NCBI GenBank assembly: GCA_950295325.1
Contig: OX485803.1
Coordinates: 1,612,001-1,676,000 of the forward strand
Direction of reading: 5' to 3'
DNA: 64,000 nt
Source: Polytrichum commune
Lineage: Eukaryota; Streptophyta; Polytrichopsida; Polytrichales; Polytrichaceae
A program made the translations under genes and the position numbers. The notes under the pieces are model-generated. The model did no database searches. It saw only the letters and a list, made by a program, of their open reading frames with translations, and was not told the DNA's origin. Shown one piece after another: positions 6,984-45,514 of this stretch; the first letter of the stretch is position 1, and each line of letters begins with the position of its first letter.

Positions 6984-6996
6984 TCTCTGAATTTCA
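6984..6996. repeat. SINE target-site duplication, 5' copy
   Basis: The 13 bases TCTCTGAATTTCA recur exactly at 7368-7380, immediately after the SINE tail. Confidence 0.85.
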
Positions 6997-7367
6997 GGCA
7001 CCTTGGGCCTTGGCTTGGTGGTTAGGGCTCATGGTTTAGGGCCCCCAATGAGGAGGTTGTGGGTTCTATTCCCCATGCATGCATGGTGCTCACCACCTTA
7101 GTCCACCCAACTATGGTGGGGGGTCCTTGGACCTTGTTGTATGGGTACCTCAAAGCCCTTTGGGTGGATACCATGTCCGGTATCTTCAAGGCACTAGTGG
7201 CTAGCTAGGAAGTAGTATAGTGTGTCACTATAGTGTCCATCCTCGAAAGGGGAGAGTAGTATTGTCCCAATGTCCCCTTGTCCGGTGGGCATCGGGTCAT
7301 TGGCATTACGAACGGACACTTTATTCACGCCGGCCCCTTAAAAGGGACCGGAGTTTCTATCTATCTA
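6997..7367 (+). mobile_element. tRNA-derived SINE with intact target-site duplication
   Basis: A 371-bp element sits between exact 13-bp direct repeats. Near its 5' end it carries a polymerase III A box (TGGCTTGGTGG, 7011-7021) and B box (GGTTCTATTCC, 7062-7072), the internal promoter of tRNA-derived SINEs. The 3' part ends in a hairpin (CCGGCCCCTT, loop, then AAGGGACCGG with one mismatch, about 7331-7352) and a short CTAT-repeat tail. From about 7228 to its end it is homologous to the 3' region of the LINE at 44762-45514: 26 of 30 bases match across 7306-7335. This suggests it borrows that LINE's retrotransposition machinery. It has no coding capacity. The exact flanking repeats suggest a fairly recent insertion. 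Confidence 0.87.
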
Positions 7368-7380
7368 TCTCTGAATTTCA
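7368..7380. repeat. SINE target-site duplication, 3' copy
   Basis: Identical to the 13 bases at 6984-6996. It directly follows the CTATCTATC tail. Confidence 0.85.
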
Positions 7381-8011
7381 TGGTGAAAGGAATTTGCCAG
7401 CTCTTTCCACTTAAGGGAACATCTTAAGTGGAAAGATTTGGGACACCCACCATGTGGGAGGGCGAAAACGTAGAGAAGCATGGCATAATTCACCCGTGGT
7501 CTCTTATTTCTTTTTATTTTACCGTTGACCTCCAAAACGGGGTCAAAGACCCGATTTAGTTGTGGGATCCAAGTAGGATAAATCACGCCCCAACTTGGAA
7601 GGGGCATATTGTTACCGGATCCCATGGTGGTCAAAATCCTCCAAAGCTTCTTCGTGAAGGCTTTTTTTAGCCCGGTCGTGTTTCGTTCCACCAAAACTCA
7701 CAGTTCATGTCTGAATTGTTCAACAATCTCACCTCCGTTTAGACTTGCTGAGTAAGCTAAACCTGGCACCCGGAAACTTCGAAGCTTCATTGCCACAGCT
7801 AGCATTCTCAATGACCTTGTGCTAGATGTACCCTAAACTTCTTCTGCCACCTGAAACTCCATGATGAAATTCGCGAGGCCCCTCATGGTGACAGAATTAC
7901 AACATAAATTTCGTAAGTGGTACTGCCACCAGAAGCTTCATGATGACGACTCACTCTCCCCCTGACACCCACTAAAGCTTTGGTGTGGGAAAAACTTCAC
8001 AATAACGTCGA
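7381..8011. other. Unassigned sequence with a recurring CTGCCACC word
   Basis: The word CTGCCACC followed by a GAA-CTTCATGATGA-like block appears at about 7848 and 7931, with weaker relatives at about 1895 and 5757. This looks like an old repeat. The 109-codon minus-strand frame at 7365-7694 has no recognisable motif. Confidence 0.4.
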
Positions 8012-8869: not shown

Positions 8870-10041
8870 TGAATATTGCAGTGGCAGAATAAGGAAGTGA
8901 AGGAGGTTGTGCCTGCCATCATGCAAGGTTTATGCATAAATTAAGTCAACATTTTAGCCAAACCATCCAATGTTTAGTCTAAGTCAAAAGGGGGATAAGT
9001 ATTGTCTTTGAGTCAAAGAACCCACAACAAGAAATCAATTGTTCCAATGCACATTGGGTGGTCTTTCGCCACCTTTGCAACCTACCGCATTGTGACTCAC
9101 CACCCAATATATAAATATCATAGCACTTTCATGAGTCGTCTTCAAAGGGGACCGTTGATTTCTAGGTGAGGAACCCATATAATGACATTGCTTCCATGAC
9201 AAGATAGAATGAGTCCACCAACCATGTAGAAAAGAAAAGAAAGGAAAAATGAAATGGTAAAAGTCGACATGAATTTGAACTCATTGGCCCTAATCTACTT
9301 AGGACTCTTCTTGGTGCAAGATGGGGTATATTGCCTACCTTGTGGTAGGTGCGCTTTGTTAATGAAGGGGCTACACAAAAATTGATCTACACAAACCTTT
9401 GAGGATGGTCTAAGATGACCAAAAATATGCTTGTATACAACATTTTCCTTCCACTGTCTAAGATGACATGCTTCATGATTATTAAAGTCATCTCTTCATA
9501 CATTAAATCATCATAAATGACTAAAAAAAAATGTCCATATGGTTGGAAATTGTATTCATGCATTAGTATGGACGAATCAACATTTTATGAATCATGAAAT
9601 TGCATACAAGAATCAGTCTATGTTTAGCACGCCATTCCATAAGAACTGAGAAAAAGAAATGTGACAATACATGCCATTGGAGACCAAACACCCCGTACAA
9701 TACGTACAAAGAAACATTGTTCATTTATTGAATTGGATTCTCATTTAAGACATGTGTTACATTGATTGGACATTGAACCAATGATGAAATTCTTGGAATG
9801 AGTTTTGGAGAATCCTTACAAGATGTTTTCATGCAAGAAAATAAATATTTCGTCACTCCAATAATGTTCTAGTCTCACTCATACAATAGCTATGAAGACC
9901 CAATTGCGATGTTTCAAACCCTAAACCGACAAGGACATGTGTTTTACTTCGGTGTTTGGATGCACGGGGAGTGGCAAGCCTGTAGGCAATAATTCCCCAT
10001 TGGCTGGGCTTCCTTCAATGTTCTGAGTTTCAGGATGGCTA
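8870..10041. other. Unassigned AT-rich sequence
   Basis: No coding frame of interest is visible. A small palindrome (CCTACCTTGTGGTAGG, about 9336-9351) recurs with one change at about 41092. Confidence 0.4.
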
Positions 10042-44678: not shown

Positions 44679-44761
44679 TGCAACAATCATTCCTCACTTA
44701 TGTTGGGTCATTCTTGCAAAATGTACAGTTTCAACATGAATATTGTTCACTTTGCAAGAGT

Positions 44762-45013
44762 GAAGAAGAAGAAGAACTCCGGCCTCAGTAGAGGCCGGAG
44801 TGAATAGAGTGTCTATTCGTAAAACATCCTTGGCCACACCCTAGGGCAATGGCATTAGATGTAAAACTACTTCACCCTTTGCAGGGAGTAGACACTACAT
44901 TAGTGATTAATAATCTTTACCAGTAGCCGGTAACATGTGCCTTTAATAGTGGTAGTTATCGTGGCACTACTACGGGGGGGGGGGGGGGTATATAAGGTTT
45001 GTGAGTGTTTAAG
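44762..45013 (-). mobile_element. LINE type 2 3' untranslated region with terminal hairpin and (TTC)n tail
   Basis: Downstream of the minus-strand LINE frame lies a 3' region of about 250 bp. It ends in a hairpin whose arms, CTCCGGCCTC (44777-44786) and GAGGCCGGAG (44791-44800), pair perfectly around a four-base loop. A (TTC)5 tail (GAA units at 44762-44776 on the plus strand) follows. Its last 140 bp are homologous to the SINE at 7228-7367. A 15-base C tract (G on plus, 44974-44988) lies near its 5' side. Confidence 0.8.
44974..44988. repeat. G homopolymer, 15 bases
   Basis: The longest G/C run seen in the window. Confidence 0.95.
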
Positions 45014-45514
45014 TTATGCTAGGTCATGTAGGTCTGTGATAGGTTGTCTATTTTCTAGCTGCCTTTTATGAGTTAATATCGAGTGTGCATATTGTATGGC
45101 AATTATGTTGATTTGTTTAAATGTATTTTTTTTTAATTTCGTGGTAGGGAGTTTAAGTTTTGTTTCTAGTTCTTTCATCGATGGGATATGAGTTGTGACT
45201 CTTGCACCTGCGGCTAATATCATAAGTGGTGCTACATTCCATCCTCTTGCTATGACATTGTTGATGAGCGGTTGATATTTTGTGGTTTCCCTCTCTCGAG
45301 TTTTTGCAGTAAATTTGTCGTTAGAATATGTAAATTCTACGCAAGAGTGAAAATATAGGTGGGTTAGACTTGAGGTTCTGTTACCAAAAGTAATCCAGAA
45401 AATCATGACAATCTTTGCTGGCATGCTTGCCATGTGGGGCCTGACACTAGTTGGGCAAGTCAACACATGTGGAAAAATTGTGTAAGGAATCCTCCTATCA
45501 TGATTCATAGCCAT
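45014..45514 (-). pseudogene. C-terminal fragment of a LINE ORF (LINE type 2, endonuclease-like tail)
   Basis: This is the longest open frame in the window, 166 codons, uninterrupted. The predicted protein contains CVEFTYSNDKFTAKTR, then ERETTKYQPLINNVIARGW, then NVAPLMILAAGARVTTHIPS and NTFKQINIIAIQYAHSIL. From memory, this pattern (a K-x-Y-x-x-L core, then GW and a hydrophobic strand ending in GA) resembles the C-terminal region after the reverse transcriptase in plant LINE-like proteins. It could be a restriction-like endonuclease of the kind R2-type LINEs carry, where a Lys followed by Tyr is conserved. No reverse transcriptase is present upstream: the copy is 5'-truncated near 45515-45540. 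Its 3' region and tail follow at 44762-45013. Confidence 0.62.

Follow-up and report, generated by a model that had tools for sequence, protein, structure and literature searches.

A window of 64,000 nt from Polytrichum commune, by which we mean the whole stretch of DNA analysed, contains a SINE and a LINE fragment, and the first-pass annotation proposed that both end in the same 3' tail and hairpin, through which the SINE could use the reverse transcriptase of the LINE. The locus thus raises the questions of whether the two tails are homologous, to which element each of them belongs, and which LINE of this genome would be the partner of the SINE. These points were addressed by comparing both elements with their relatives in the genome, which comprises 408 Mb and includes seven large contigs measuring 42-78 Mb. 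An rbcL-type frame on contig C8 shows the plant to be photosynthetic, and its translation looks moss-like.

The SINE and the LINE copy in the window

The SINE and its flanks comprise the following features.

6984-6996: 5' copy of the target site duplication (TSD) of the SINE, exact 13-nt direct repeat of 7368-7380
6997-7367, plus strand: full-length SINE, 95.6% identical to the consensus of the 39 top-scoring copies
7011-7021, plus strand: box A-like motif TGGCTTGGTGG, read by eye
7062-7072, plus strand: box B-like motif GGTTCTATTCC, read by eye
7227-7356, plus strand: LINE-derived structured 3' tail of the SINE (covariance model match 7226-7356, E 2.4e-13)
7357-7367, plus strand: (CTAT)n terminal repeat of the SINE
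7368-7380: 3' copy of the TSD, exact 13-nt direct repeat of 6984-6996

The 13-bp flanking repeats are exact, as annotated, and both read TCTCTGAATTTCA. The annotated polymerase III boxes stand in approximate form: motifs resembling both boxes can be read by eye, GGTTCTATTCC with about one mismatch (10/11) and TGGCTTGGTGG with about two mismatches to what we take to be the tRNA-type consensus, but neither the strict box A nor the strict box B pattern matched the SINE consensus, in which only GGTTC was found, at position 58 (39-copy consensus). ARAGORN detected no tRNA in the SINE consensus or in any of five SINE copies. Genome matches of the SINE had identities of 94-100% (best 40 of 1,810 candidates, the window's own copy included), and the 39 top-scored copies were on average 98.8% identical to their 353-nt consensus; since identities come from the best ~40 matches scored per DNA search, copy similarity is biased upward in these figures. 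The copy in the window is the most divergent of the 39 and carries a 7-nt insertion absent from the consensus. Flanking TSDs (exact, at least 8) were found at 45 of the 50 SINE loci scored, four of the 54 loci remaining unscored. Within the 64-kb window no Rfam family reached its gathering score, and the tail was on this ground rejected as a known Rfam RNA. Just 3' of the SINE, at 7403-7435, lies a perfect 13-bp inverted repeat (CTTTCCACTTAAG...CTTAAGTGGAAAG) seen in 0/100 shuffles.

The LINE copy is resolved as follows.

44754-44764: 3' copy of the LINE TSD, overlapping the tail repeat
44762-45340, minus strand: 5'-truncated LINE copy of lineage A1 (TTC class)
44774-44902, minus strand: structured 3' tail of the LINE (151 bits with the covariance model, of whose training set it is a member)
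45014-45340, minus strand: C-terminal end of ORF2 (longer copies encode RNase H upstream)
45341-45351: 5' copy of the LINE TSD, 11-bp repeat

The 11-bp repeat TTCACTCTTGC at 45341-45351 and 44754-44764 bounds the copy, which is truncated at about 45340; position 45514, previously taken as the end of the fragment, is the end of an ORF-finder call lying outside the element. Among the matches listed (40 scored places), relatives of this LINE start at query position 181-184 in 36 of 42 rows, and homology is unbroken through the ORF end, the UTR and the tail, with 32 of the 42 rows spanning query 181-184 to 745-751. A single TSD encloses both the frame and the tail, and in relatives the tail accompanies ORF2; the tail at 44.8 kb thus belongs to the LINE copy and not to a neighbouring SINE. 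The window LINE is a truncated relic of a related, TTC-tailed class. Its 3' UTR contains a run of 15 C at 44974-44988, 5' of the structured tail, and similar C runs just upstream of the tail were seen in L016 and other copies of lineage A2 that were read.

Homology and genomic distribution of the 3' tail

The SINE and the window LINE have a 3' end of about 130 nt in common (7227-7356 and 44774-44902), close to the ~140 bp of homology first described. The 26 identities in 30 positions reported within it were recovered after a one-base shift (7306-7335 versus 44793-44822; 8/30 otherwise), and the simple-repeat ends, (CTAT)n in the SINE and (TTC)n in the window LINE, were confirmed. Local alignment of the two 160-nt ends gave a score of 45, compared to 25 for the best of 2,000 dinucleotide shuffles, which led us to reject a chance match.

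Since MAFFT aligns one arm of the predicted fold (P3, see below) poorly between tail classes, RNAalifold on the mixed alignment understates this arm, and a LINE-only covariance model was therefore used. The model was trained on 17 TTC-type LINE tails, including the one in the window and no SINE. Applied to the whole window, it yielded 151 bits for the LINE tail and 66.9 bits for the SINE tail (E 2.4e-13), and the sole other match up to E 1 (E 0.061) overlaps the LINE tail on the opposite strand. The model also detected all of the 11 tested SINE, A3 and A4 loci with E-values of 1.8e-9 or better, A3 and A4 being two further LINE lineages; it did not detect the LINE family B (L014, L015).

Majority consensus tails were built from 53 SINE, 15 A3, 13 A4, 19 A2 and 10 A1 copies. 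The consensus SINE tail is identical to that of A3 at 118/133 and to that of A4 at 119/133 positions, compared to 85/135 for A2 and 77/135 for A1. The consensus 3' ends, whose comparison had been proposed as a check, thus agree between the SINE and these two lineages. The homology to A3 and A4 begins at ACTATAGTG, and of the 23 columns 5' of it only 8 agree with A3 and 3 with A4, which marks a sharp boundary. Mean identity to the class consensus was 97.4-98.9% in the SINE, A2, A3 and A4 (98.8% for the 19 A2 tails) and 92.3% in A1, by which A1 looks older. In a FastTree phylogeny of the tails, the SINE (with the truncated copy L091), A3 and A4 were grouped with a support of 0.791; the SINE was joined to L091 with 0.726 and A3 to A4 with 0.639, a weak nearest relation, and the divergent CTAT-type copy L080 attached beside this group (0.743). 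Judged by these comparisons, the (TTC)n lineage A1 of the window is a cousin of the SINE tail, with A2 belonging to the same class as A1, and the partner that matches best is to be found outside the window, in the CTAT-tailed A3/A4 group of this genome. The different hairpin arms described earlier apply to the pair in the window but not to the best-matching LINE lineages, which have nearly the same arms as the SINE and the same CTAT repeat. As A3 and A4 are both ~11% apart from the SINE tail, its exact source may be another or an extinct lineage.

The tail motif CACTYTATTCACKCCGG has 745 exact copies on the forward and 743 on the reverse strand of the genome, and the reversed-pattern control has none on either; these counts are a lower bound for the number of tails because in 8/10 A3 ends with long frames the linker reads CATTCAC and not TATTCAC. 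We fetched 40 loci, i.e. the first 44 listed motif sites, all on contig C1, minus four already obtained. A SINE head was found upstream of the tail in 14 of them, LINE UTR or ORF upstream of a (CTAT)n tail in nine (eight by BLAST, of which L078 and L079 rest on a 37-bp piece, and L094 by alignment) and LINE sequence upstream of (TTC)n in five; the loci with no recognised upstream sequence comprised six (TTC)n and six (CTAT)n ends. This sorting indicates that two LINE tail classes exist. Genome matches to A3 had 94-100% identity in 40/40 cases (best 40 of 1,784 candidates), and those to A4 96-100% in 24 of 41 rows, five of which cover the query only partly, among the matches listed. A3-like ORF2 included three open frames of 2,625 aa (best 66 of 3,798 candidates), and A3-type LINE ends picked for long open frames, these three included, carried the tail plus (CTAT)n in 10/10 cases; the four A3/A4 copies fetched at length contained no intact ORF2. 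For A2, the TTC-type tail was complete at 17 of 20 ends. RVT_1 was found in L013 and L016 and in part in L119, and the ends of all three carry the tail.

Some individual loci showed further peculiarities. L103 and L112 are tail-only insertions with TSDs of their own whose starting points, at ...GGGCATC inside P3, lie no more than about two bases apart, possibly reflecting a repeated reverse-transcription stop or a template jump. The 3' flank of L058, an A2 LINE copy, is by eye reverse-complement SINE sequence, which suggests insertion of the LINE into a SINE. L078 and L079, two A4 copies at ~728,500 and ~828,500 of C1, are near-identical including their flanks although 100 kb apart, which points to a duplicated region, whether genuine or an assembly artefact.

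Predicted fold of the tail

The predicted elements of the SINE tail, all on the plus strand, are listed below.

7232-7320: three-way junction closed by P1 (7232-7238 with 7314-7320)
7240-7253: P2 hairpin with a GAAA (GNRA) loop
7256-7309: P3 arm (GTAG ... TTAC base)
7321-7328: conserved linker TTATTCAC, the last two bases of which may pair in P4
7327-7354: terminal hairpin P4

Single-sequence folds of the SINE, A2, A3, A4 and the window A1 tail gave one plan in 5/5 cases, with z-scores of -2.8 to -5.7: P1 (AGUGUCY/RGACACU) around P2 and P3, then UUAUUCAC, P4, GUU and the repeat. For a broader survey we used 119 tails, i.e. 135 loci minus 18 without a full tail by pattern plus the two tails of the window. 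P1, multiloop and P4 were predicted together in 107/119 tails compared to 47/595 dinucleotide shuffles, and a GNRA-capped P2 in 108/119 compared to 4/595. The full fold was predicted in 51/53 SINE, 13/13 A4, 13/15 A3 and 18/19 A2 tails, in 6/8 others, in the single L091 and in only 5/10 of A1.

Across the 17 tails of TTC type, 91.1% of cells are paired under the named structure, compared to 34.6-48.9% when it is slid. These tails contain 15 changes on both sides of a pair, compared to 7.0 +/- 2.2 in shuffles, and a covariation score of 0.153 compared to 0.128 +/- 0.008, both values being reached by 3/500 shuffles; further pair types were not in excess (388/500 shuffles reach the observed value), and pair 6 of P1 is broken in 9/17 tails. 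Between the classes, pair 7 of P1 is C-G in 46/53 SINE, 12/15 A3 and 13/13 A4 tails and U-A in 18/19 A2 and 8/10 A1 tails, and pair 5 of P3 is swapped inside the CTAT class, with C-G in 15/15 A3 and U-A in 46/53 SINE and 12/13 A4 tails, the remainders for both pairs being other letters or unread by pattern. The P2 loop is GCAA in 26/29 A1/A2 and GAAA in 79/81 SINE/A3/A4 tails. Exceptions to these class rules occur among the eight unassigned tails, where L076 is a TTC tail with a GAAA loop and L080 a CTAT-type tail with U-A at pair 7 of P1. The proposed check for hairpin covariation across copies thus turned up predicted compensatory changes between the classes, and on the strength of prediction and covariation the shared tail has a conserved RNA structure. 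The 5' arm of P1 is altered to a mispairing form in some SINE tails, AGTGTTC in 2/53 and AGTGCCC in 10/53. The ten copies with AGTGCCC for AGTGTCC, in which one base is mispaired (L020, L021, L023, L026, L042, L093, L100, L104, L106 and L109), are possibly a sub-lineage.

The LINE lineage and its relation to the SINE

In longer copies (L001-L012) an ORF2 containing RNase H is present (L001, PF00075, 4.1e-9), and A2 is a sub-lineage with many long frames of up to 2,169 aa. The domain order in L013 (482-6988, minus strand) is endonuclease (PF14529, 5.3e-7), reverse transcriptase (PF00078, 2.5e-26), a PCIF1_WW-like domain (PF12237, 1.6e-9) and RNase H (8.3e-15), the PCIF1_WW-like domain between reverse transcriptase (RT) and RNase H lying at about aa 1410-1525 of ORF2. 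PCIF1_WW, which we take to be the family of the cap m6Am methyltransferase, exceeded the Pfam cut-off in L013, L016, L119 (A3) and L015 (family B) and fell short of it in L014 and L002. Family B and A2 share 43% identity along 2,166 aa, and the ends of family B, read by eye (L014 ~9600-9670, L015 9251-9300), consist of ATTTACGC or ATTCACGC, a hairpin, GCGTTA and T-rich repeats; going by these letters, the linker and the hairpin position seem to be kept.

The same genome contains LINEs with a zf-RVT domain, L139 (44.3 bits, above the cut-off) and L138 (26.1, cut-off 27.5), the latter with an A-rich end. Like these conventional plant L1 elements, the tail-bearing LINEs have endonuclease-type and RT domains, but L138 and L139 are only 21-25% identical to A2 and family B around the RT, and zf-RVT was absent from L013 and L014 (E to 0.1) and L016 (E to 1). 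Based on these differences and on the (TTC)n or (CTAT)n ends, membership of the plant L1 clade was rejected. The best PDB match of the RT was an R2 protein (1.8e-25), and 8c8j, presumably human L1, followed with 6.9e-14, values that are insufficient to settle the clade. By its domains and ends, the tail-bearing LINE would thus be of the type endonuclease-RT-PCIF1-like-RNase H and neither L1 nor RTE.

Insertion sites were compared between the two kinds of element. TSDs of LINE or tail-only copies were sought at 47 loci, 40 of which had a pattern-read tail, and 17 acceptable ones were picked by eye. The first base of the TSD was T in 42/45 SINEs and in 17/17 LINE or tail-only copies, a preference partly favoured by the longest-match rule because the tail itself is T-rich. 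C at -1 was found at 0/45 SINE and 0/17 LINE or tail-only sites. At LINE sites there is a preference for AT ahead of the junction (82% at both -3 and -2), which was not clear in SINE sites. No T stretch was seen ~10 nt upstream of the TSD, T amounting to 22-36% at -13 to -10 in SINEs. An Au-like/RTE system was rejected on account of the absence of this stretch and of LINE ends that are (TTC)n or (CTAT)n and not (GTT)n.

The SINE and the LINEs thus share sequence, predicted fold, class of terminal repeat, TSDs and T at the junction, and in the LINEs the tail is linked to ORF2. Tail, fold, repeat and junction base together support the use of A3/A4-type LINE machinery by the SINE and, as far as sequence can tell, suggest that it borrows the copying enzyme of these LINEs. 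The idea of a partnership through the shared tail is therefore well supported, but not the partner originally named, the TTC LINE of the window being only a cousin and A3/A4 matching best. We consider it very likely that the SINE, as a non-autonomous retroposon, carries in its last ~130 nt the entire 3' domain of an A3/A4-type LINE of the same genome and is mobilised in trans. According to this mechanism, the SINE RNA would be transcribed by polymerase III and would display the folded 3' end of the LINE, i.e. the three-way junction with GNRA-capped P2 and with P3, the UAUUCAC linker, P4 and the CUAU repeats. The ORF2 protein (endonuclease, reverse transcriptase, PCIF1-like domain, RNase H) would bind this tail and nick the target DNA such that the duplicated site begins with T, and reverse transcription would be primed on the terminal repeat, giving TSDs of 9-15 bp.

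Three other explanations were weighed against this one. The (TTC)n LINEs of A1/A2 could mobilise the SINE as well as or instead of A3/A4 if the fold and not the sequence were recognised, in keeping with the one architecture common to both tail classes, with the detection of SINE tails by the model of TTC-type LINEs, and with the many long open frames and homogeneous tails (19, averaging 98.8% to consensus) of A2. We regard this as unlikely, since the SINE tail follows A3/A4 in sequence, GAAA loop and CTAT repeat and not A2 (GCAA, TTC), and since stringent LINEs are described, in the accessible part of the published work, as discriminating cognate loops (PMC4176376). Much less likely still is a tail acquired long ago and now irrelevant, with the SINE being copied by another enzyme, e.g. 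that of a conventional L1-type LINE. Although zf-RVT LINEs (L138, L139) are present and the end of L138 is A-rich, the SINE ends read have TCTA-type repeats and no poly(A), the 39 top-scored SINE copies, averaging 98.8% to consensus, retain both tail and repeat, and the junction base is the same as in the LINEs. Finally, the tail at 44.8 kb might be a SINE fragment inserted beside the LINE frame, one of the two findings that the first-pass annotation had named as fatal to its proposal. The genome does contain insertions of the tail alone, flanked by TSDs of their own (e.g. L103, L112), but here homology is continuous through ORF end, UTR and tail, a single TSD flanks the whole and the TTC tail differs from that of the SINE, so that this reading can be given practically no weight.

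Partnerships of this kind are known. In the accessible text of a 2013 review, 58 SINEs with a partner LINE are counted, with three pairs in flowering plants; tobacco TS SINE and an RTE LINE have ~100 bases and a TTG repeat in common, and maize ZmSINE2/3 and an L1 LINE a 3' hairpin with compensatory changes (PMC3747384). Legume SINEs paired with RTE LINEs were reported later (PMC13295347, in part), and the partners in the plant pairs on record in these sources are L1 or RTE (PMC3747384, PMC13295347). Land-plant LINEs listed in the accessible part of a 2022 review are likewise L1 and RTE (PMC9033089). As in the stringent-type tobacco and maize pairs, to the extent described there, the 3' end of the SINE derives from a LINE; unlike in these pairs, it comprises ~130 nt predicted to fold into a three-way junction followed by a terminal hairpin, the LINE resembles neither L1 nor RTE in domains and end, and one genome holds two tail classes. 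The TSDs start with T as do those of the Au-like and Sauria SINEs, for which, in the portion of the report consulted, a link between the terminal repeat and the first TSD base was proposed and the RTE signature Tn-TA includes a T stretch about ten bases upstream (PMC13295347). In contrast to those systems, the elements studied here lack the upstream T stretch, and the LINE encodes RNase H and terminates in (CTAT)n or (TTC)n instead of (GTT)n. The ORF2 proteins of zebrafish ZfL2-1 and ZfL2-2 recognise a 3' stem-loop, the stem generally and the loop specifically (PMC4176376, accessible part); that stem-loop was studied with binding assays, whereas the GAAA/GCAA difference here lies in P2 of a predicted junction. 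Our literature search, which mostly covered papers outside subscription, gave no bryophyte SINE/LINE pair and no PCIF1-domain LINE among the matches listed. While the principle of sharing is known, three features appear to be new within the literature searched: a partner from this LINE lineage, a tail with a three-way junction, and two tail classes in a single genome.

More tentatively, and with the balance of our judgement somewhat against it, the two tail classes, GCAA-loop/(TTC)n and GAAA-loop/(CTAT)n, may represent parallel classes of RNA recognition within a single unusual LINE lineage; one fold would have been kept while its arms were rewritten, and the SINE would have captured the whole domain of one class. 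If true, this would amount to two naturally orthogonal RNA-protein specificities in target-primed reverse transcription. Few SINE/LINE pairs of land plants are on record, and the pair in P. commune adds a different LINE lineage to them. With its numerous similar copies, its long open frames and a large structured tail in which compensatory variants occur naturally, it would allow the recognition of RNA by the LINE protein to be tested by means of sequence swaps already made in evolution.
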